Source: Tubulanus polymorphus (lineage: Eukaryota > Nemertea > Palaeonemertea > Tubulaniformes > Tubulanidae). From it: a stretch of DNA of 64,000 bases. This document shows positions 28,634 through 41,663 of the stretch, piece after piece (position 1 is the first letter of the stretch; every line of letters starts with the position of its first letter). Position numbers and translations under genes: made by a program. The notes beneath the pieces are model-generated. The model ran no database searches and was not told where the DNA came from. It saw only the letters and a list, made by a program, of their open reading frames with translations. The stretch is taken from contig NC_134028.1 in NCBI RefSeq assembly GCF_964204645.1, forward strand, positions 18,574,153 through 18,638,152, written 5' to 3'.

Positions 28634-29703
28634 GTAGGTAAAATTCTCCCCGGTAAAAATCCCCCCAGTAAAAATCCCCCCAGTTCAGTTTTCTATCAAA
28701 TTTAAGTAAAAAACCTAAATGAAAACCGATAATACTTTTTTACAATAATACTCAGATAATACATAGATAGGTACACAGATATTTTGCTATTACTTTTAAC
28801 TTAGATTTCTTCATAGAAATTTTCAGAAATACGATAATATCATTTTCATTTTTACTAGCTAAAAGTCACAGAATAATGTCATTTTTATGCACGTAGCTTG
28901 GTCAAAGCAGGGAAGTGTGATGAGATGGAATACGGACGCTTTTAATTGCCGGATGTAGGCTATTCAATTCAGCCCGTACATCAAAGGTTACCGCAACAGC
29001 AGTAAGTTTGCAAAAGGTTGAAAGCCTGTTTTGGTCGATGGCGAGTGACGTCACTAGTACAAATTCCGAGCGGTTCGAATCCCACAATACGCCAAAATCA
29101 CTACGGCCGCTCTGAGCGCACATCGCATTTCAACGTTGCCGTTTAATAATTGTAAAATAACTAATACTAGTTTTATAAGGGTTAGAAGTACATTATATTT
29201 ACTGCTAGTGTATGTATATATCATGTGCGGTTGCGAGAAATCCCTGCCCTGGTTAAACATGAGTCCACTAAACCTTTAAATTTTAAGTTGTTTAATGAAT
29301 CTATTGTTTTAAATTGTTAAAACTGCAAACTATGGTTGTCGAAGATGCACCTTCTTCACATCCTTTGAAATCCTGGATAGCATCGCTGTCGGCAAAAGCC
29401 TTCAGGTCTGTCTTCAACGGCACATCGCTTTGGAACAAGCGACTACTGTGTTATCAAATCTGAACTAGGTAAAAACATGTTCCCCAAAAATAAAGACAAG
29501 TAAACGGATTAATTTGAGGTTTGAATGTTTTTGTTTATTCGTTGGTTCAAATCGAACCCTCGTCATCCCTGATCTCCATAAATCTAGGAAAAATATTCGC
29601 ACACTTAAAACAATAAAATACGAGCAATAAGCAATAACATCAGACCGGAGTAAGTAACTTTACTTAATTCACAGATACAATCCTACACAAAAAAATAGCT
29701 ATT

Positions 29704-29945
29704 CAGTGGCGGATCCACCCCTTTATTTTTACCGATGTAGCCGCAAATCTATGCGTTACTGAGTAAAAACCGAATGAAATCTTTCTATTAAGTAATGCTC
29801 AGAATGCACCTGCTTGCATCTATTTTTCCAAAATTTTTTTAGGGAGGGTCTTCGCGTTATCGGTGCTTGTTCTGGAATGGCTTATAGCCATCTGTTGTTG
29901 CTTTCATTTGCCCCCCCCCCCTTCAAAATGCTGGATCCGCCCCTG
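29704..29945. repeat. Possible MITE inside the MULE-like element
   Basis: CAGTGGCGGATCCA at 29,704 and TGGATCCGCCCCTG near 29,932-29,945 form imperfect terminal inverted repeats typical of hAT-type MITEs. A run of C at about 29,910 lies within. The 8-bp flanks do not match. Confidence 0.45.
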
Positions 29946-30059
29946 AGTGCAGACAAAATGATCGACAAAGACATACAGAACTCTAAAACAAGTTAACAAT
30001 TTAAGCAACGATAGACAAAACAGATAGCTGATTACTTTACAAACCTGTTGTCAGAACCT

Positions 30060-30990
30060 TAATTAGTTTTACATGTACATACAGAGGACTGTTAACAATT
30101 CAACCAATGAAATTGCGATAGAGATACAGAACATACAGCTTTAACAGTAAACAATGCAACCAATGAACTGCGATTAACTAAGACCTACGAGCAATTATCA
30201 AGTTTGATAATTGCTCGTAGCTAAGACATACAGGACAAACAGGACTAACTTAATTGCGATAGACATACAGGACATACAGAATTAACAGCAGACAATTCAA
30301 CCAACGAATTGCGATTAACTAAGACATACAGGACTAAACCACAGGACAAACAGGACTAACAGTAGACAATTCAACCAATGAATTGCGATTAACTAAGACA
30401 TACAGGACATACAGGACTAACTTAATTGCGATAGACATACAGAATATACAGGACTAACAGTAAACAATGCAACCAATGAATTGCGATTAACTAAGACATA
30501 CAGGACTAACTTAATTGCGATAGACATACAGAATATACAGGACTAACAGTAAACAATGCAACCAATGAATTGCGATTAACTAAGACATACAGGACTAACT
30601 TAAATGCGATAGACATACATAATATACAGGACGAACAGTAAACAATGCAACCAATAAATTGCGATTAACTAAGACATACAGGACTAACTTAATTGCGATA
30701 GACATACAGAATATACAGGACTAACAGTAAACAATGCAACCAATGAATTGCGATTAACTAAGACATACAGGACATACAGGACTAACAGTAGACAATTCAA
30801 CCAATGAATTGCGATTAACTAAGACATACAGGACATACAGGACTAACTTGATTGCGATAGACATACAGGACTAACAGTAAACAATGCAACCAATGAATTG
30901 CGATCGCGATCACAAAGACATACAGTCAGGACAAACAGGAATAAACCACAGTAAATTGCGATAAAAAAGACATACAGGACTAACTGCAGT
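30060..30990 (+). repeat. Tandem array of ~89-bp units
   Basis: Units contain GACATACAGGACTAACTTAA, ATTGCGATAGACATACAG and AACAATGCAACCAATGAATT; successive copies near 30,462 and 30,551 are 89 bp apart. Some units lack a half, so lengths vary. At 30,185-30,220 a perfect hairpin has 17-base arms (CTACGAGCAATTATCAA, two-base loop, complement). It lies in the 3' flank of the transposase gene. Confidence 0.88.
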
Positions 30991-30999
30991 AAATATATA

Positions 31000-31937
31000 G
31001 GGCCTTAGGAATGCAAAATACATTCATTTTGTCGAATTTAAACATTCCACAACTTAATTCATTATGTCATTTCCAGTTTTCAAAGGGAATTTTCTTAACT
31101 TCAGATGCCTCGAGGACATAAACATATAGAAAGATCTGTCCCAAAAAAAAATGTCAAGTGTCTTTCTTAGTGCAATGGGCCCTGGTTTCCACGTTTATAT
31201 ATCACATATAAAATTCTACAGAAACAATCAATGAATAAGTGAAAATTTACGAATAAGAAACAAGACATTCAAGCAGTTGAGTAAGTTAAAATGGGACCAA
31301 TCTATATATATTATATATGGATTATACAATTTAATTAGGGACAGCCTTGAACCGAGGTTGATGTGTCCATACACTCTCCTCATACACTCTCTGAACATGC
31401 ATGTATGTATACTGCTGCCAATTGATGATAAGTCAAGGATGTTGAAGTTCTAGACATGGTCAGAATCATCCAGAGACATCGGCACGCATCACAATAACTG
31501 ATGATTTTGCAGTAACCTGTAACATAAAAAATCAAGCGGTAATCTATTCACAAAATATATTTTCCTGAAAGAAAAAACCTGAAATAGAGCACTATAAACA
31601 CCAGTGCATATACATTGCTTCTTAACCTTATATATAATCGAGTAAATATATAGGTGACTAAGTGACGGTCATTATAGGCTTCTACGTTCACCATGGGAAA
31701 TGAAAATATTTCTAACGTCAGGGATTCATTCGAAACCCGATCAATAATATTCAATACAAACTATTTAGGAAATTGGGTCACAATGAAAACAAAACCACCT
31801 GATATGTTCAGGAGGAGCCTCATTGATTGGAGCACATTTCCAATGACAATTATCTATGGCAATTATCACATTCAATTGAGAATGTGGACTTTTTCTTAGG
31901 ATTAGCATTGCAGTTTTTGTGGCAGACAGGGCAGGTT
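31000..31937. other. 3' flank of the giant gene, no other gene seen
   Basis: AT-rich; short frames at 31,548-31,754 and 31,693-31,899 have no recognisable features. Confidence 0.4.
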
Positions 31938-32252
31938 TCAGCAACTAACTGAGAAGGGGTTTTTGAAGGGGTTTTTTTCAACTGTTGATGACAAAAGATA
32001 ATCTAGTTTCAATTTTGCTAGGTTTTGGAGGCCTGCATTTCCAGGTTGATCTATAAGAATTTCTAATTCTTTTTCAGAATTGGAATTATTGATTTCTGTA
32101 ATAGGAGAACTGTTGAGATAATCATCTTTATTATTATAATCGATTACAATAGATTTTTTCTTATGATGATAATGTTCAATACGAATGTGCTTTTGAAGGA
32201 ATGTTTCACTTGCATATGAATTAATAAACCCCATCTGCTCAACAAATAGCAC
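31938..32252 (-). CDS. C-terminal C2H2-like tail
   Basis: The frame continues from the previous one after a shift near 32,245. It includes SYASETFLQKHIRIEHYHH, the second half of a C2H2 finger whose cysteines (SCAIC) end the preceding frame. An acidic tail follows and ends with a stop at 31,938. Confidence 0.55.
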   Translation of the reverse strand: MLFVEQMGFINSYASETFLQKHIRIEHYHHKKKSIVIDYNNKDDYLNSSPITEINNSNSEKELEILIDQPGNAGLQNLAKLKLDYLLSSTVEKNPFKNPFSVSC

Positions 32253-33822
32253 ATGAGATAGGTTTCAAAGATGAATGAGAAGTGGATATGTGCTTATCTA
32301 GTTCCCTGCGACTTGAACAAAGATATGGAGGATTTATTTTGTCTTTAATACAAAAGGAACAGACAATACTTTTTCCAAATAAAACAGACTTCGAGTCATT
32401 TTTAACAACTGGTATTGACTTAATATCTTTTGGTTTGGTATCTTTTGATTTTTTCGGTAAGGATGATTTATTCTGACTTAAAATATCTGCTGAAAATTCG
32501 ATATCATTGCCAGGATCTGGATCAGTGGAGTCTATGGTTTCAATTTCTGATATTTTAGCTTTTTTACCTAGTTTGATAGCAGCATTTTCAACCATAGCAG
32601 AAAAGGATACACCTCTGTTAGCAGGTCTAATTATCTTTCGCCCTCCGTGTCTTGCATTCTCAGCATCTTTAGGCATTGTAACCTTAAGGCAGTAAGGGTC
32701 TATCACTTCAAGTTCAGGAAGGTTTATGGAAACCTGATTGTCCTTGATTGGACCCTCGGCACGCCTATGAGCCATATTGTGAGGTTGTCGTTTGGCAGGT
32801 CGTCCGCTTATTAACTTATATCCACAGTGGCTTTCATTATGTAAAATACTTAGAATGTGCCCTTTCCTAGCAGCATTGATATCATTCGAGCTAGCAATGT
32901 GGGAATGATCTTTTAACTTATCAATGAGGGTAGATGAAACAGAACTATTTTGTCGAGTAAAATTGTAAGTTGGCAGAGGCTCCACAATGTGGAATTTATA
33001 TGCATCAATTAAAGCCTTCGTTGAGGTTATATTGTTTTTTTGGGCAAAACAGGCAAAAAGATGTTTGCAAAAATATGGTTGTCCAATCATTATAAAAGCT
33101 TCACAAGTACATATACCTAGTTTCAAATTGATTAAATGGCAATTACAATCTACGTATGAAAGACAATTTTCAGGAACGATTGTAATAACGTAATTGAATA
33201 AGATACGACTGGATATTGAATCTAAATTTCCTATGTACCTTCGGCATTTTTTTGAAATGTCATATGAATGTTCCTCGGATATTGATACTTTATCGGGGAA
33301 TCTTTCTTCTAAAACATCAAGCTGATTGAATGTATATTGAGTATCACCATTGAAAAAATTATCATTATCTTCTAACCTATTTAAGTTCTTTCGTGAAGAA
33401 CTCTTCACAACAAACCAACTAGTTTCTTCATCATATTTAAAAATCTCATTATTCTGTAATAAATCAAAGGCTCTTTTGCAACACATCTTTTCAAGGTGAC
33501 GTATATTCTTAACTCGTTGGTCAAGTTGCTTAAATTGGAGATTGTTCATATTTGTCGCTTTTATCTCATCATTAAAAACATTTTCAAACAGTAATCGTAT
33601 AAAAGATGATATCAGTTTATTTAGGTGTCCACTTAAGTAGACATCATCTATTTGTTTGAATTTGCGCTCAGTAATATTATCAGTTAATAGCAAAGGGTTA
33701 TTTCTGTGAGATTGGTCTGACTGATAAATTGATTCAGCATTGAATGCATCAGACCAAATTTGGGAATTAAACCAATTCTTCTTAAGGTAATCAATAAATA
33801 ATGTTTTTGTATCTTGCGACAT
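32239..33822 (-). CDS. Transposase C-terminal half with SWIM zinc finger
   Basis: 527 residues. The SWIM signature C-x-C-x(n)-C-x-H is ICTCEAFIMIGQPYFCKHL (Cys 238, 240, 252, His 254), the finger typical of MULE transposases. A C2H2-like segment SIVCSFCIKDK...HISTSH lies near the C-terminus. Between them are basic, Lys/Asp-rich linkers and RPAKRQPHNMAHRRAEG, which may be nuclear-localising. It follows the catalytic region after a one-base shift. Confidence 0.72.
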   Translation of the reverse strand: MSQDTKTLFIDYLKKNWFNSQIWSDAFNAESIYQSDQSHRNNPLLLTDNITERKFKQIDDVYLSGHLNKLISSFIRLLFENVFNDEIKATNMNNLQFKQLDQRVKNIRHLEKMCCKRAFDLLQNNEIFKYDEETSWFVVKSSSRKNLNRLEDNDNFFNGDTQYTFNQLDVLEERFPDKVSISEEHSYDISKKCRRYIGNLDSISSRILFNYVITIVPENCLSYVDCNCHLINLKLGICTCEAFIMIGQPYFCKHLFACFAQKNNITSTKALIDAYKFHIVEPLPTYNFTRQNSSVSSTLIDKLKDHSHIASSNDINAARKGHILSILHNESHCGYKLISGRPAKRQPHNMAHRRAEGPIKDNQVSINLPELEVIDPYCLKVTMPKDAENARHGGRKIIRPANRGVSFSAMVENAAIKLGKKAKISEIETIDSTDPDPGNDIEFSADILSQNKSSLPKKSKDTKPKDIKSIPVVKNDSKSVLFGKSIVCSFCIKDKINPPYLCSSRRELDKHISTSHSSLKPISCAIC

Positions 33823-33827
33823 AAGGT

Positions 33828-34877
33828 CTAAAGAAATATCATTCTCAATAAAACTATAAATGAATTGGCTATATCAGTTCTAGAGGAAGCATCCCATGAT
33901 CTCATAGTGCATTTGAAACCAGTTTCTAGAGGCTTGCAAAATAAGCGAAGTTCTTGATTTTCATTCATGAAGCGACGAATACACTGCAGGACATGAAAAT
34001 TACATAGTACTGATTTAAGATTATTGTCAGATGCTCCTTGCTTTAAACTTGCATCTTTATCATGTTGTACAAAAGGACAAAATCTAGATGTCGATGAACA
34101 TGGCTTGATTCTGAAAAAACCATTGCCATCATTAAATATATAGAATTCAGATGGATGATTACATTTTTCGTCTTTACATGGTGTATTGGCTAGAACTAAC
34201 TGGATGGTAGTTGCATGAGTAGCCCCCCCTTCATCACTACTAATTGATGCAGCAGCAATACGTCCTTCATTTTTGTTGTCTGCAAAAGTTACAAATGAAG
34301 TTTTGAATTTCCACGAATTGAAATCATGTTTCACGTCAATACCAATGACAGATTGTCCAAAGTTGGATAAATGTTCCACAGAACGAGGATCAGAGAGAAT
34401 AATGTGATAATTACGTTTGAGTGTGGCATCCCCTCGTTGAAATAAAAGGACAGATTCATAGTTACCCTCTAATAATTTTTCAGTATTTCTCCAATCAGAA
34501 CTTAGAATAGGTATTTCGTCTTGAGATTTCATATGTAATTTTATCGAAGATTTATCAATATATTTCAATCTATTTGAAATTTGATCTAGGGTATGGTCAT
34601 GACCGGCGCCATCATTTACATTTGATACATGAAGGTTATTGTGAGCATTGGTGGCAGAAAGAACCTTCATTGCTGTGGCATTCATCATGACTCTATTTTC
34701 ATCCCATCTATCTCTAGTAGATAAATTAGGTCGCTTTTTAATTTGTAAAGGAATATTTTCATGATATTGACCATTAAGTGGTTTGCTGAAGATTCTCCAC
34801 TTGGATAAATCAGTACTAAATAATACAAGTTTCGTTGCCCAATAACACATAAAATGAGGGTGAATTTTTTGGCTCAA
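33828..34877 (-). CDS. MULE transposase catalytic region
   Basis: Residues about 176-205 of this frame read SVIGIDVKHDF...FVTFADNKNEGR, the first catalytic Asp block of MULE transposases. HDKDASLK (near 272) matches the second Asp block. LCNFHVLQCIRR (291-302) is the C/H-x-H-V motif placed after it in the family. The third acidic residue should lie further on, near or beyond the frame break at 33,830. The preceding part (KRPNLSTRDRWDENR) is unassigned. MULE transposases excise and reinsert the element. Confidence 0.75.
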   Translation of the reverse strand: MSQKIHPHFMCYWATKLVLFSTDLSKWRIFSKPLNGQYHENIPLQIKKRPNLSTRDRWDENRVMMNATAMKVLSATNAHNNLHVSNVNDGAGHDHTLDQISNRLKYIDKSSIKLHMKSQDEIPILSSDWRNTEKLLEGNYESVLLFQRGDATLKRNYHIILSDPRSVEHLSNFGQSVIGIDVKHDFNSWKFKTSFVTFADNKNEGRIAAASISSDEGGATHATTIQLVLANTPCKDEKCNHPSEFYIFNDGNGFFRIKPCSSTSRFCPFVQHDKDASLKQGASDNNLKSVLCNFHVLQCIRRFMNENQELRLFCKPLETGFKCTMRSWDASSRTDIANSFIVLLRMIFL

Positions 34878-35076
34878 ACTGCTGCCTTAACTTCGCAGGA
34901 CGATCACGTTTATTCTTCAGCTTATAGTTGTAACAGTTGGAACAAAATGTTTCACCATCAGCATTTTTCCTCCATTTGTTAGACATGGTAATGGAGCAAT
35001 GAATACATTGTTTATCATTTAAAACAACGTCAATTTGACATGAGGGACAATTAGTGATGTTACTGGACACATTCAA
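34816..35076 (-). CDS. GATA-like zinc finger
   Basis: CIHCSITMSNKWRKNADGET followed by FCSNCYNYKLKNKRDRP has the C-x2-C-x17-C-x2-C spacing, the WR pair and the basic tail of GATA-type fingers. A second CPSC lies upstream. It likely helps DNA binding of the transposase. A frameshift near 34,870 separates it from the next segment. Confidence 0.65.
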   Translation of the reverse strand: MNVSSNITNCPSCQIDVVLNDKQCIHCSITMSNKWRKNADGETFCSNCYNYKLKNKRDRPAKLRQQFEPKNSPSFYVLLGNETCII

Positions 35077-35104
35077 CTTTGAAAGATAATATCCACATGA
35101 TGAT

Positions 35105-36275
35105 TTATATTGAAGACTTTGACGAACATTTTATGAGCATTTCTGCAGCCACAAATTGAGAAGTATCCTCAACAATTGGCTCAATAAATTCAAATTTATT
35201 ATCTAATCTATGGGTTTCCCAATTCTTTTTTAATGTTAAGGAAGCTTTCATCGTTGTCAGGTTACCAACAAATGAAGGCCGCACATTCTTATGCAGACGA
35301 ACTGTTTTTGTTAAATCAAAAGGGAATCTATCGAAATAATATTTTGTGTCAGCACCAGTCATTACTTCCCCATTTTCAACCCATTCATCACTAAGTGGAT
35401 TCTGGTTGTTGAGGTATTTCTTGATAGTGTCAATGGCTACCTGGTCATTTGTACCTTGGTCTGTACAATGAAAACTTTTATACTTCGTCTTACTGTCAGT
35501 TGAATGAAAAGCTACTTCAAGATAATGCTTTCCTCTCCTGATGCGATGGGAGATAGTAGTTTTAGAACCATTAATATGGGAAGTTAATGGTTCAGCTGAA
35601 TTTATAGTTAATGAGGATTGAGGATTCAAAATTGAGGATGTAGATTCAGGTGTAGATTCATTATTCGAAATTGGTGTAGATTCAGGTGTAGATTTAATAG
35701 TCAAAATTGGTGCAGATTCACTATTCGAAATTGGTGTTGATTCGTGTTGATTCATTAGTCAAAATTGGTGCAGATTCACTATTCGAAATTGGTGTTGATT
35801 CAGGTGTTGATTCATTAGTCAAAATTGCTGCAGATTCATTATTCGAAATTGGTGTAGATTCAGGTGTTGATTCATTATTCAAAATTGGTGTAGATTTAGA
35901 TTTGGCTGTAGTTAAGACTGATTTGCTTTTTTTATGGGCAATATGAGAGTCTGACATCTTTAATTCAGAACTAGCTAGTGTATTATTTGACTCAGTTGAT
36001 CGTTTATGTCTCTGTCTGCGAGATAATCGTGATATCTTAGAGAAAGTAGTACTATTAGCAGCAGGTTGAGATGACTTTGAGAAGAGTTGAGTAATATCAA
36101 TTAGATGTTTCATAATCCAATTAATCAATATCAATCTAACAAAATCAGAATAGTTAGAAATGTTCTTAAGATAAGATAATTCATTGGGAGATGAAAATAC
36201 ACTTGAAATATCCTTTTCATAATAGGTTGCAATGCAAGCACCAATTAATGTAGCAGGCCACAGACAGATGAACAT
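35105..36275 (-). CDS. Helical tail of the peptidase, Ser/Thr/Glu repeat, and unknown domain
   Basis: The first part (PATLIGACIATYYEKDISSV) continues the peptidase after a frameshift. A basic patch SRRQRHKRS resembles a nuclear localisation signal. Then a low-complexity array repeats ESTPESTPISNNES-like units (DNA about 35,640-35,900). The last ~150 residues (RIRRGKHYLEVAFHSTDS ... FDLTKTVRLHKNVRPSFVG) form an unrecognised domain. A frame break lies inside the repeat near 35,745, where slippage is easy. Confidence 0.55.
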
Positions 36276-37464
36276 GATTGGAGTGGGTAATAACTAGTAC
36301 AATTATTACTACATACATGCACTGAATTTTCAGTAACAAAATGAGGATCATGGAGGTGGATATAAACAGGATCAGGGCAATTCAAACCTTTCAAAACAGA
36401 TCTTAAATGATTTTTAAATTCCCTAGGACAATCCCATGCTAGTGTATCAGCATAACACAGTTTGTTACTTTTTGGGTAAAAAACTGCTAGTGCATAATGA
36501 TTGGCAACAACATGTCCATAAGAATTTAGAAATACGAAATCATTTTGGGTGCCAACATGCAGGAAAAAAATTAGTTTATCACAACTTATGAGTGGATTAG
36601 GACCGAATCTTTTATATAAATTTGAAACATATTCCTTAGCATCAAATGTAAGTGGCATCATAAATGCATGAATATTACAGTACTGTTCATTTATCATAGA
36701 TGCAAAAGCATTTAACACAGATCCTTCAAACCATTTTTGATTAGTCATCGTCTGAAGTTCTGATACAGATACGCTATTATTATTACCAACAGGAAATTGT
36801 TGAGAGGGTTTTAAGGAAAAGAGCATATTTGAAAATGCTTGAATCTGTTCCCAATCGACTGAATCAGTGGGGCTTAAAGGCTTACTATTTACCCAAAGAT
36901 TCATGGCAAAAAAGAATTTGTTGTTTGGTTTTAGCATAATGTAAGAAAAGAAACCTATTAATCTGATCAATAGAATAGCAGCCGGTATCGAGTATCACAT
37001 GGATATTAATGGAAGGGTCACGGACAATCCTTGACTGCATCTGTGCTTTTATGTCCTCCAACTGATTTTTGTGGGGCATAGTGGGGGCATCATCAGCCAA
37101 ATGACATGAATTAGACATGTCACAAATTCTGAATGACGTGACCTTTGATGGCATAACAGGAGGAATTTTCAAAAACTGATAGTCATTGAGGCACATTTCT
37201 GTTGGATTGTAACTAAAATTTCTTCTACATACATGTTCATCATCAGAATCATTCTCATCACTATCATCAATTATGATTGGTTCGATACCTCCACCACCTG
37301 TGTTACTTAGCCGTTTTTTGTTTTCCATCCAGCTATCTTCCTGCATCTTTAATCTTTCTATCCTTTCTTTCGAACTATCTTCCTGCATCTTTTCTGCTTC
37401 CTCTATCGTTCCTTCCGAGAAATTGTCACAAGCCGCGTCCTTTCCTTCTTCCTCCATTGTCCGC
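36245..37464 (-). CDS. Acidic region and Ulp1/C48-type cysteine peptidase domain
   Basis: It starts after an acceptor at 37,465 with a charged, repeated stretch (KMQEDSSKERIERLKMQEDS), then an acidic patch. A one-base shift near 36,960 leads to LWVNSKPLSPTDSVDWEQ and NQKWFEGSVLNAFASMI, then ANHYALAVFYPKSNKLCYAD (catalytic His and Asp) and a final QSCSSVCG (catalytic Cys with its oxyanion-side Gln/Ser). Spacing His to Asp to Cys fits Ulp1/SENP-like SUMO peptidases. Ulp1-like domains are known companions of transposases in plant KI-MULEs and other large elements. Another shift follows at about 36,255. Confidence 0.72.
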
Positions 37465-37626
37465 CTGAAATACGCATTATCAACTCACTCTTTTTTAGAC
37501 ATATCAATAGATAGAGTATGAAATTACCCATATAGGCCTAACATAAAACATGGGTATCTCTGAGTCATTTGCATTAAGTCATTTGGATTTGTAGGTAATA
37601 AAATAATTGAATTATGTTGTACTTAC

Positions 37627-38573
37627 ATTTCAGTATGGTTTAAACTAACGTGGTCTAGAAGATCTTTCCAATTGGTGAATTCAACTCCGCAAAAACATGT
37701 CGAGTCAGCAGGATCCGTCTGTGGATGAATAACCTAATGTGGAAGAGCACATTAATCTGTTTTTGCTTCAACATCTAAGCAAAAATAACAAAAATAAACC
37801 CGCGTCTCGCAGAAAGGGCATCAAACTTACATGTTCCACTGACTTCCTTTTTCTGTTAAATCTTTTAGTATTGTGACAACTTCTATTGTAGCATCCCTGA
37901 ATATGAAAACAAAGCTTTACAGCATTAGTCATACCAATACCAATGAATTTCTATAATTTCATTTCGAGAAACATATTACTCACGTTCTTAGTCTGATAAA
38001 AAGGAGTTAATAATTTAGGCTTTAAACAAATAGCAACACCAGCCACATCAATTTTAGTCATGTACTGGAAAAAAAGACAGATTTGTGCATGCACAGCCTT
38101 TAGGTAATTGTGAAATAAAAGTGACCAAACTAATATTAAATCATAAGTTCTTGAGATGATATGTACCTGGTCGAATGTGAAAAAGGCGCTTTGATCTTCA
38201 CAACAGAATTGTTTCCTTGTATGATGCGCAACTGCTATACTGGATTGAAGGATACAAAAAACTGTTAAAATGTATCTAACTTTATAAAGATAAATCACTT
38301 ACAAATCACACTTAGGAAAACAACTTTACCACTATTGTTGAATCATCCCATGCTCTTGCTTGATCATTCTTCAATTTGTTTTTCGCTATCAGCTATCAAT
38401 ATGATTCATTAATTCAATGCAAGGATTTTGAATAAAGTGGTTTCGTATTCAAGTTATAAAAACCAATTGCAAATCATTCATTAGGATATCAATGCTAAAT
38501 GATTACCTTTCGTCGATGGACTGCTCTACTTCTTTGCATCTTTTCAATCTCATATGGAAAGTATTGAGGGCAC
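37627..38573 (-). CDS. Linker exons with Cys-rich and C2H2 zinc-finger segments
   Basis: Six small exons. 38,507-38,573 and 38,330-38,392 encode a basic region (EKMQRSRAVHRRK, LIAKNKLKNDQARAWDDS). 38,167-38,239 encodes RKQFCCEDQSAFFTFDQ but needs a phase not offered by the preceding exon, which suggests a one-base error there. 37,984-38,064 encodes MTKIDVAGVAICLKPKLL. 37,831-37,896 encodes GCYNRSCHNTKRFNRKRK. 37,627-37,718 encodes a finger, CFCGVEFTNWKDLLDHVSLNH. The last exon ends in phase 2 and joins the acidic segment at 37,464 in frame. Confidence 0.6.
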
Positions 38574-38667
38574 CTGATTAAGAATCATTCATTATTTCCA
38601 GTACAATCATTAAATTTATGTAGTTTGTTTACCTGGTAATTGGATAAAATAATGCAATTCTACGTAC

Positions 38668-39412
38668 ATTTCATCTTCATTTTTCAATAGCAGTAGTTCC
38701 ATTATCCTGTTATTTATGAACTGATTTCCCTTACGGCTGGGGTGTAACAAGTCAGTCCTAGATCACAAAATTTAAAAAAAAAACAAGTCAGTTTAAATCG
38801 CGAAAAAATGCAAATAAGCTACTGGGCTTATTAAAATTAAACGATTACTTACGGTGAAAGGAGATCTCTTGAGAAGTGAAAATCAACGAACTTTACACCA
38901 AGTGTAAAGCATTCGCGGTGCAGCATTTCATTGTAATGAAATATCTTTGTGTCAGCATCGAAACTTTAAAAAAGAAAGAAATTTAAAAATCATTACATCG
39001 ATCATAAATATAGTACTTCAAGAAAAATCTATTCTTGATACTTACTCATCACATCGAGGAAAAAGAGCTGGTACAATGATGGTCCCAGTACATTTATAGA
39101 GCAACAATCGAATTAATTCAACGTGTCTTCGCAGAACAATCTCAAGCGGGACATCACGCGTCATATTATTTGTTCCAACATGGACGATTAGTTGTTCCAC
39201 ATTCAGCATCTTCACCTTTTTCAATTCTGTAATATACAACTAATCAGTAACCCAATGAAAATGAACAATATAAATCAGTACTGAACCGAGAAATTACCTT
39301 CCATCAATGTTACAATGGTTCCTCCGGGGCACACAATCCTTGTCCATTCAAATAAGCCTACACCATCTATCCCAGCATACTTTAAAATGCTGTCTGCTAC
39401 GAGACCAATACG
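38668..39412 (-). CDS. SGNH-hydrolase-like domain, four exons
   Basis: Exon 1 (39,298-39,412) has IGLVADSILKYAGIDG with the block I serine as ADS, and VCPGGTIVTLM. Exon 2 (39,046-39,226) has LIVHVGTNNMTRD, the block III GTNN. Exon 3 (38,853-38,963) has KFVDFHFSRDLL. Exon 4 (38,668-38,757) has DLLHPSRKGNQF, the block V D-x-x-H. All junction phases agree. This spacing and motif set is that of SGNH/GDSL-type hydrolase domains often predicted in invertebrate transposon proteins. Serine, asparagine, aspartate and histidine are all present, so activity is plausible. It is spliced in frame to the basic segment that follows. Confidence 0.75.
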
Positions 39413-41057
39413 CTACAAAAAAGATTATTTGTCAGTCTCAGGCCAATATCACAGGGAGGTGTGAGAGAGCACACTGGTTACTGTAAGACCCTACTATACG
39501 CAAAAGAAGTGACACATATATGTATATCAATGTGATAGAATTGATTGAAAAAATTGTGCATAATAGTAGCTAGTGCCCAAAAATAGAACACAGTGTTATT
39601 GAAGTGAAAATTTCTAAAATCCTCTGAAGCGGTGCTTATTTGGTAGCTACATGGGTATTCTAATTGAATAAGCATAAAGATAAGCGTGCACACACAGTAG
39701 CCTATGCATAAACAAAGGCCAGTTTCACCTTCACCTAAAAGTCCTGCAGTGTGAAGACTAACTTGTTCACCTAAACCACCTCTACCAGCTGTGGAAGGCC
39801 TAACATCAGGCACTAAATTAAAAAGATTCCTCTTAATCAAATTATCTATAAACATCCTCTTAATTGCAGGCAGACTGATTCAGGGAGGGGTGCAGCCCAA
39901 AATAGGGCATACGTATCAGTATCATATATAATTAAAAATCAAAAGGGCACCAGATCATCAGAAAACATAATACCTATATTTTGGAAGTAGGCCTACAGAG
40001 AACATGTTTTGGAATATAAGCTTTTTAAAAATACTTGTTGATATTTTTCATTTTCCCTTTAAATTTCAGTGCAACTTAAAAATTTTAAGGGGTGTACACC
40101 CCTGTATACTCTCCTGATCTGCCCCTGAATTGCCACTTAACAAAATTTCTCAGCTTAATTGTTGGCTAACTAGCTCAGTGAAACTGGGACCAGACCTAAT
40201 GCATACACCCTCAGTGGCCAGGGCCAGGATTGAACAGTTAGGCTATATAAATAAAGGAATGAAAAGTACTTGAAATTGGTTAGGCTATCTATCTGCAACA
40301 AGAAATACATTTTCATTGACTCTGAATACAGGGAACTACCATTCTGTTTCGAGGCCTTAAAATTTATTGTTTATTTTTTGTTGCTGGATTTGGAATGGTT
40401 GTTGGAATATTTAAGGCCTAGTAGGTGGTGACTGTGTACGGGCAACATAGGCCTATACCCAGTGACATGGCAATGGCATGCCACTGGGTACCCACTACTG
40501 CACTATAGTATACTGCCTACGGCTACTGCGACTGGTGGTTCGGTTGGCAGAAATTACTTGTTAACATTGGGAGGGGGGAGTAAGCGTGGATGAAGACAAA
40601 TTAGCCGAGTAAGTAGCAAGTAAAGTAGTGGCAGTACAGTAGGCCTAGCGACAATGTGAGTGTGGTGGTAACGTGGCCGTGGTGGCAATAACAAGACTCC
40701 AAAACTGGCAAAAGCCAAAATTAAAAAGCCCTGCCGCCGCGCGGTCGCGACGCCTGCACCACCGTGCACGATGTCGATGGCGGTTCACCAGTGTTACCCA
40801 GTGAGTTTTTTATAAACTTGCAATCTACCTCTTTTTTCAAACCAATATTCCCACCAACTGGTCCGGAGACAAGCTTAACACGTTCGGAAAACATGATTCA
40901 CAATCTTTTAATCAACAGCCAGCAAGACTACACTTGACAGCAAATTCAAATTCAGCGGTTAACCGTTAATAGTGAGTTGTTTAGCTTTGGGAGTTACAAA
41001 AAGGCGATCTTGATGACGTCACTAGCCATCGACCAAAACAGGCTTTCAACCTTTTGC
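39413..41057 (-). other. 5' region of the giant gene
   Basis: A frame at 39,478-39,855 begins with a plausible coding stretch (NLVPDVRPSTAGRGGLGEQV) and could be an upstream exon, but no donor with the right phase was found. The segment 39,870-40,134 has MITE-like ends (TTCAGGGAGGGG and CCCCTGAATTG). The promoter should lie between here and the terminal repeat at 41,014-41,057. TGACGTCA inside both terminal repeats is a CRE-type palindrome. Confidence 0.35.
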
Positions 41058-41663
41058 AGTAAGCTACGCTTATCGAGTGTGTGTTACCAGCTGAACACCA
41101 GTCAACATCAACTTTGATTCGGTCGCAGAACAACCCGCAATAGTTTTAGCCCGATAAATGTTCTGCGATCGATACTACGCATGCGCACTGCAGTTCATTG
41201 AACAACGTGGAAGTGGCTGTGTATACACATATTTTTCTTTAGAAAATCGGTTGAAATTCAACAATTTCTCGTAAAAATTGTCCAAAAAGGTATGTATTTT
41301 TATTCTTCTATATCTCCGAAACCCTGTATCGGAACATTAAGTATTTATATTGTGATTAAAGTCTGTTTTTATGTGTTTAACATATGTTTTTGCCAGTTCG
41401 TTCCGATTCCGGGTTTAGCGTTTTTTGGGCCTTGAAGAAATATTTCGGCCCAGACTCGCGCAGCTTTCGTTTCTGACGTCATGTTGCTACGTTACGACAC
41501 AAACATATACACGAAGTATGATCTTTAAAATGTGTATTTACTACATAATAATGTTACTTAATAACGCTTACATTAGGCCTACAAATTATTGTCCCCCATA
41601 TAAACCAAGTTGCCTAAATAGCATCAGCAATCTCATTTAATTAACCTTTTCTTGTTTTTAGTC

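Follow-up and report, generated by a model that had tools for sequence, protein, structure and literature searches.

The stretch of DNA analysed here (the window, 64,000 nucleotides) maps to C4:18,574,153-18,638,152 within the 268-Mb genome of the nemertean Tubulanus polymorphus, and harbours a complete DNA transposon of 12,048 bp (window positions 29,010-41,057). The element carries a gene on the minus strand, whose upstream exons code for an SGNH domain and whose large last exon is predicted to code for a Ulp1-like peptidase and a DDE transposase. At a probability of about 0.78, we read it as a Rehavkus-type cut-and-paste transposon that combines SGNH domain, Ulp1-like peptidase and DDE transposase in a single transcription unit. 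The following features delimit the element:

29001-29009, unstranded: left target-site duplication, AGTAAGTTT (7/9 match to the right one)
29010-29053, unstranded: left terminal inverted repeat (TIR), on the 3' side of the gene (43/44 complementary to the right TIR)
30234-30983, unstranded: minisatellite array separating the gene (3' end) from the left terminus, with units of about 61, 74, 89 and 150 bp (TRF)
41014-41057, unstranded: right TIR, on the 5' side of the gene (pairs with the left TIR)
41058-41066, unstranded: right target-site duplication, AGTAAGCTA (7/9 match to the left one)

The termini are 44-bp inverted repeats with 43/44 complementary positions (98% for 29,009-29,053 against 41,014-41,058), and thus agree with a previous account of the window made from its letters alone (the sequence-only reading), which had described 44-bp termini with one mismatch and an imperfect 9-bp flanking duplication. 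Allowing up to 3 mismatches, a genome-wide scan found 65 instances of a 32-base end motif (34 in forward and 31 in reverse orientation) and none of the reversed-pattern control. Copies gathered via the termini and possessing both ends form a sample of 25, i.e., 24 fetched copies and the window; omitted pairs include C4:12474101-12484858. The 9-bp target duplication is perfect in 20 of the 25. It matches at 7/9 positions in the window, at 6/9 in s_C2d and, as aligned, at 3/9 in C1a and s_C1b, while C13 lies at a contig edge. No 25-base word is common to the 150-base flanks of any two copies. The inverted ends do bound homologous copies, which bears out the earlier view of a giant, MULE (Mutator-like element)-related TIR transposon of an animal.

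An uninterrupted frame of 1,918 codons is retained in seven of the 25 copies. These frames differ from each other at 0 to 8 of 5,754 bases, and owing to this near-identity we conclude that the transposon family moved recently. The window copy is 98.4% identical (ungapped) to the intact copy C2a, and its big exon harbours 11 indels, nine of which break the frame, as they are not multiples of three. Accordingly, the window copy is a decayed, dead element older than the intact copies, a point missed by the sequence-only reading.

The sample also comprises shorter and longer forms. The copies s_C2e, s_C4e, s_C6d and s_C1b (L034, L039, L040, L041) constitute a 4.8-kb non-autonomous subfamily with approximately 2.3 kb of unrelated DNA between the ends of the element; since dispersed repeats elsewhere match parts of this DNA at up to 99%, it has the appearance of a fragment from a different mobile element, taken up or inserted. 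Four deletion derivatives (s_C3a, s_C3b, s_C11, s_C6c; L029-L032) carry the SGNH exons A-D and the SWIM-to-PHD end, and are devoid of the Ulp1-like and DDE core parts. Finally, a 17.3-kb copy at C2:19705419-19722669 (L027-L028) combines an intact big exon with about 5.5 kb of additional DNA near the 5' terminus.

The exons of the gene, termed A to K, lie on the minus strand of the window as follows:

39298-39412, minus: exon A, SGNH block I (DS) and block II (G) (splice chain of the intact copy, alignment)
39046-39226, minus: exon B, SGNH block III (GTNN) (splice chain of the intact copy)
38853-38963, minus: exon C, SGNH (splice chain of the intact copy)
38668-38757, minus: exon D, SGNH block V (DLLH; catalytic Asp and His) (splice chain, alignment)
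38507-38573, minus: exon E (conserved in the diverged family L046, 57% identity, E 7e-7)
38330-38392, minus: exon F (splice chain; not recovered in L046)
38167-38239, minus: exon G, with a short frame-breaking deletion in the window copy (73 bases versus 81 in the intact copy)
37984-38064, minus: exon H, whose Met is the start of RefSeq isoform X2 (RefSeq model, splice chain)
37831-37896, minus: exon I (spliced in RefSeq P0001)
37627-37733, minus: exon J, C-x-C...H...H zinc-finger-like (spliced in P0001; conserved in L046, E 3.6e-9)
31768-37464, minus: exon K, a single frame to the stop in intact copies, frameshift-broken in the window (intact-copy comparison)

In the intact copy C2a, the ten exons A-J precede exon K and are separated by 10 introns, all of them GT-AG. 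The phases agree at all junctions, and exons A-K yield 2,232 open codons without a stop. The exon boundary sites of the window copy at the equivalent positions are GT-AG as well. The RefSeq uncharacterized protein LOC141914437 isoform X2 (P0001) matches the large frame at 100% (rounded), and its gene model splices exons H, I, J and K as in the predicted chain. The introns formerly proposed at 37,464-39,412 are therefore genuine features of the intact copy. A chain of further exons had been proposed in 31,938-37,484; this region is instead one exon, which is uninterrupted in 7/25 copies and seems to be split in the window because frameshifts break it. The single phase mismatch noted by the sequence-only reading is consistent with the shortened exon G of the window copy.

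The chain of exons A-D matches the Pfam model PF13472 (E 5.5e-9), and so do the corresponding chains of two other families (E 4.3e-9 and 3.5e-9). All three scores (37.2-37.9 bits) exceed the curated cut-off of 32.9, and hence the SGNH blocks recognised by the sequence-only reading hold. The SGNH chains of the other families are 59% and 25% identical to that of the first family. Nevertheless, Ser, Gly, Asn, Asp and His are invariant in the alignment of all three, within an Asp-Ser motif in block I (ADS/SDS rather than GDS), Gly in block II, GTNN in block III and D-x-x-H in block V. Among solved structures, the best match of a three-sequence SGNH profile is chain 4c1b, an ORF1 (open reading frame 1)-encoded protein (E 1.4e-7), which we take to be ZfL2-1 of Schneider et al., the membrane-binding esterase of a fish LINE (long interspersed element).

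Every copy of at least 9.7 kb (12 of 12) contains exons A-J between its inverted ends (exon A of C8 is aligned over 113/115 bases, and exon G of the window over 66/81). Genome-wide, 21 of 25 strong exon-B matches are located within 8 kb of a terminus, a count that leaves out two weaker matches (C7, corresponding to L046, and C4:9937148, 29%) and one partial match. Family L046 harbours the SGNH exons A, B, C, D and E as well as exon J in order upstream of a Ulp1 frame on the same strand; exons H and I are recovered weakly, F and G not at all. In a third family, the SGNH region is found upstream, and on the same strand, of a transposase member of its own family at all three genomic places (C7, C6, C39), although at C39 the match is limited to residues 73-192 of 193, so that the beginning, including blocks I and III, is missing. 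The big-exon proteins of L046 and L044 are merely 38% (756 codons) and 44% (1,718 codons) identical to that of the first family. A separate SGNH gene or element, the finding that was to overturn the original proposal, is rejected as the principal explanation because the SGNH exons lie within the inverted ends in 12/12 long copies, and two other families likewise have them upstream of the gene.

Based on its sequence, the big exon is predicted to encode several further domains, the positions of which in the window are:

36081-36766, minus: Ulp1-like peptidase domain, His 36499, Asp 36448, Gln 36280, Cys 36262 (residue spacing, profile matches)
34921-35007, minus: GATA-like zinc finger (three-protein profile versus GATA chains)
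33643-34349, minus: transposase DDE core, Asp 34337, Asp 34061, C-x2-H 34004, Glu 33669 (motif, three-protein invariance)
33052-33117, minus: SWIM-type finger, CxC...CxH (motif, invariant in three proteins)
32275-32361, minus: C2H2-type finger (motif by eye)
31774-31933, minus: PHD finger, out of frame in the window copy (PF00628, TAF3 PHD match)

The Ulp1-like residues correspond to His 329, Asp 346, Gln 402 and Cys 408 of the frame (spacing 17, 56 and 6). They are invariant in four relatives, and the His-Asp-Cys order noted before is confirmed. Profile matches extend over the Ulp1/SENP2 range (E 0.0026-0.03), with yeast Ulp1 (1euv) at E 0.0026. In a search with the three-protein profile of the GATA-like finger, GATA-1 and GATA-3 chains reach E 3.3e-9 and 5.3e-9 when both of their fingers are counted, and a one-finger chain reaches 5.1e-5; the Pfam GATA match is below the cut-off. 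The DDE core (Asp 1065, Asp 1157, CxxH 1176, Glu 1288) is invariant as a motif in three proteins, and a ZSWIM1-3 RNaseH-like Pfam match appears only in P0002, below the cut-off (E 0.047). P0002, a distant relative (30% identity, 56% of the query covered), has retained the zinc finger as well as the Ulp1-like, GATA-like, DDE and SWIM parts according to the alignment.

The PHD finger had been overlooked before. PF00628 scores 22.6 bits in C2a (E 1.1e-4; cut-off 24), 24.1 bits in P0001 (E 3.6e-5) and 28.5 bits in L044 (E 1.5e-6), and the PHD finger of TAF3 is matched at E 3.5e-9, which suggests that the domain may read H3K4me3. TAF3 PHD has a cage Trp before its first Cys; this residue has no counterpart in the family of the window element, and L044 has a Trp at that position. 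Taken together, the domain order that best explains these matches would be, from the N-terminus, SGNH, a small zinc finger, Ulp1-like peptidase, GATA-like finger with a further DNA-binding region, DDE core, SWIM, C2H2 and PHD.

Two side observations concern related loci. At C8:14390000-14400000 (L048), tandem frames about 1,916 bp apart share, by eye, the pre-DDE region, the GATA-like finger and the C2H2 finger; they have no transposase and no Pfam match, and may represent a host gene that arose from an element of this type. In L046, a frame resembling a LINE endonuclease by eye follows the interrupted transposase frame.

Several observations weigh against an SGNH-Ulp1-transposase gene of this kind. 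Four of the 25 strong exon-B matches (C10, C3 and two on C9) have no terminus within 8 kb, and are probably relics. Upstream of exon A, nothing convincing emerged as a conserved first coding exon. Protein searches for an SGNH-transposase fusion in other genomes found none, and one of them, limited in its reach, listed only P0001, missing even P0002, a part of its own query. A Pfam scan of P0002 gave no SGNH or PHD match. Moreover, Pfam scans matched no MULE, SWIM or Peptidase_C48 model; of the profiles proposed earlier, PF13472 was matched, and the MULE core and SWIM finger stand as motifs. The best Ulp1 alignment (1euv) covers His and Asp and ends before Cys, and structures predicted from the window frames, P0001 and P0002 have a confidence that is too low (mean pLDDT, the predicted local distance difference test, of 39 for the Ulp1-like and 30 for the DDE part). 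The functional steps outlined below are all inferred. Finally, RefSeq isoform X2, the sole protein model encountered, begins in exon H and does not include the SGNH domain.

The last point leads to the competing explanation that survives best, namely that one element generates two products via alternative promoters or splicing: an SGNH protein, and a Ulp1-transposase starting at the Met in exon H. This arrangement would also agree with the Ulp1-to-PHD part being one exon by itself. On the other hand, exons D-K join in phase with GT-AG introns throughout and no stop, which is needless for a separate SGNH gene, and the name "X2" implies at least one further isoform. Furthermore, the exon boundaries agree between L046 and C2a in all 8 cases tried; the L046 boundaries were picked by eye, so that the AG/GT agreement is partly built in, which applies less to the codon pattern and to the length differences, all 8 of them multiples of three. 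We therefore regard two products as unlikely, if worth keeping in mind, and SGNH and transposase as likely to form one continuous protein. The sequence-only reading had left open whether SGNH and Ulp1 are fused to or co-made with the transposase; the domains are indeed in line, and a single polypeptide is likely only.

The class assignment relies in part on the minisatellite, which previously went unnoticed and was detected by TRF. Tandem arrays occupy the corresponding subterminal region of all 12 long copies, and downstream of the gene, L044 and L045 have arrays of other sequence (a 74-bp unit repeated 28 times and a 34-bp unit, respectively); the L046 gene does not have an intact 3' end in its locus. 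According to the available part of a 2019 survey of Mutator elements (PMC6446971), Rehavkus elements are characterised by 9-bp duplications, TIRs of 26-400 bp, one gene, a PHD finger and a minisatellite that precedes the 3' TIR, and are known from arthropods and annelids. A Tribolium Rehavkus of 9.5 kb with tandem arrays in its inverted termini is mentioned in PMC10218199, and the group has been reclassified into MuDR (PMC4455052), as far as the accessible text of these sources goes. The Tubulanus element shares these traits, i.e., a 9-bp duplication (20/25 copies), a TIR of 44 bp, a single gene, a PHD finger and a minisatellite ahead of the 3' TIR. The best reading is therefore a Rehavkus-type, Mutator-related element, because among the rows shown of the survey table only Rehavkus combines 9-bp duplication, PHD finger and minisatellite; it is filed by features and compared with Rehavkus by published description, another point that counts against the assignment. 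In contrast to the element, the available part of the survey does not mention SGNH or Ulp1-like domains for Rehavkus, nor does it list SWIM (PMC6446971).

The unlisted SWIM finger would also fit an ordinary MULE of animals that belongs to a different group (Phantom-like or not), where PHD finger and minisatellite arose by convergence. Some aphid Phantom elements do possess a minisatellite after the transposase ORF, according to the same partial source (PMC6446971). Yet, PHD finger, 9-bp duplication and subterminal minisatellite jointly fit the Rehavkus row only, among the rows shown, and membership in another group thus seems rather doubtful to us.

A further explanation treats the SGNH exons as a passenger that was captured a single time and plays no part in transposition. 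MULEs are reported to take up host gene fragments (PMC6446971, available part), and an SGNH hydrolase gene of the platyfish is reported, by title, to have been captured and mobilised by a Helitron, a precedent that likewise speaks for the passenger. In addition, six of the 25 copies (s_C2e, s_C4e, s_C6d, s_C1b, s_C4a, s_C2d) do not carry exons A-J and spread anyway, as non-autonomous copies would. However, a passenger would decay, and the SGNH domain with its catalytic residues is kept in three families despite the low identity of their big exons. Between C2a and L046, 184 codons of exons A-E differ at frequencies of 0.32, 0.21 and 0.59 at codon positions 1, 2 and 3, and 61 of 102 same-residue codons (Met and Trp excluded) show a synonymous change. 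In this one comparison, the strong excess at third positions and the synonymous changes indicate old purifying selection on the SGNH domain, and a passenger is improbable.

Even less probable is a non-enzymatic, Oskar-like SGNH scaffold that binds RNA or protein. The OSK-domain model PF17182 is found in two of the three chains below its cut-off (E 2.8e-4 and 0.0042), and Oskar structures are matched at E ~0.01. Yet, acylhydrolases outscore Oskar in both Pfam and structure-chain searches, and the SGNH blocks of all three families share an unchanged Ser, Gly, Asn, Asp and His, whereas the Oskar domain is devoid of Ser and His and termed catalytically inactive in the accessible part of PMC2848206. 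As to a viral origin, a three-protein profile run against viral contigs gave 60 pattern matches, none of which was confirmed, and this idea was rejected.

For the Rehavkus-type element, we infer cut-and-paste transposition from its ends, target duplications and DDE motif. The DDE core, together with the GATA-like and SWIM fingers, would bind and cut the ends, where the subterminal minisatellite probably provides reiterated binding sites, and the element would insert with a 9-bp stagger. The PHD finger might dock on histone H3 tails, and the Ulp1-like domain would most likely strip SUMO, or a related modifier, from host proteins that serve in silencing or repair, either at the donor or at the target site. 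By analogy with ZfL2-1, the SGNH domain is probably an acetylesterase, which would attach the long protein isoform to membranes or lipids. The SGNH esterase and the esterase of LINE retrotransposons may stem from a common source.

Individual parts of this architecture are familiar from other mobile elements. A Ulp1 peptidase occurs in animal Mutator elements of hydra and lancelet, and the same paper, as far as available, proposes a role for Ulp1 in repair after transposition (PMC2836005). Ulp1-bearing VANDAL genes of plants act against silencing (PMC13317346, in the accessible passages). The element resembles these Mutators, as well as plant Kaonashi and Ulp1-carrying VANDAL elements, in harbouring a putative Ulp1-like domain in a Mutator-related context (PMC2836005, PMC13317346). 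In contrast, the plant elements are non-TIR, encode Ulp1 in a separate gene and show no SGNH in the passages available; the Tubulanus element possesses TIRs and a Ulp1-like domain inside the transposase exon, and thus does not qualify as Kaonashi or KI-MULE. Ginger1 also features a transposase fused to Ulp1, plus a PHD finger in one family (PMC2836005, available part), yet its DDE core is of the Gypsy-integrase type, and the wording of the paper contains no SGNH or esterase (PMC2836005). Integrase Pfam models matched none of the element's proteins at E up to 1 or 5, which sets it apart from Ginger1.

With respect to the SGNH domain, the closest counterparts are retroelements. The LINE ORF1 esterase ZfL2-1 is likewise an SGNH esterase of a mobile element (PMC3905857, accessible part), a LINE-type ORF1 protein, 4c1b, being the best match in the PDB, and rotifer Terminons and long terminal repeat (LTR) elements carry a GDSL esterase, according to the excerpts available; all of these are retroelements rather than cut-and-paste DNA transposons. 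The platyfish Helitron shares an SGNH hydrolase on a DNA transposon (Tomaszkiewicz et al. 2014, by title; cited in PMC7599744 and PMC6825717, in the parts available), and differs in being a rolling-circle, non-TIR element with what is, by title, a captured host gene, not shown to be fused to the transposase. Searches of open-licence papers, a scope that does not extend to Repbase, brought up no description of an SGNH hydrolase within a TIR cut-and-paste transposon, whether of the Mutator type or another. The earlier statement that the full architecture is undescribed holds for the SGNH part only, since Ulp1 in animal Mutators is already in print (PMC2836005, available part).

These comparisons extend Rehavkus-like elements, by feature, to a nemertean, and the near-identical intact copies provide study objects for a poorly known group of animal Mutators. 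SGNH esterases recur in unrelated retroelements (LINE ORF1, rotifer LTR elements, Terminons), where their role is unsettled; the suggestion made in print is that they help RNA particles to bind lipids and membranes. A conserved SGNH domain in a cut-and-paste DNA transposon, which does not need an RNA particle, renders this role testable from a second side.

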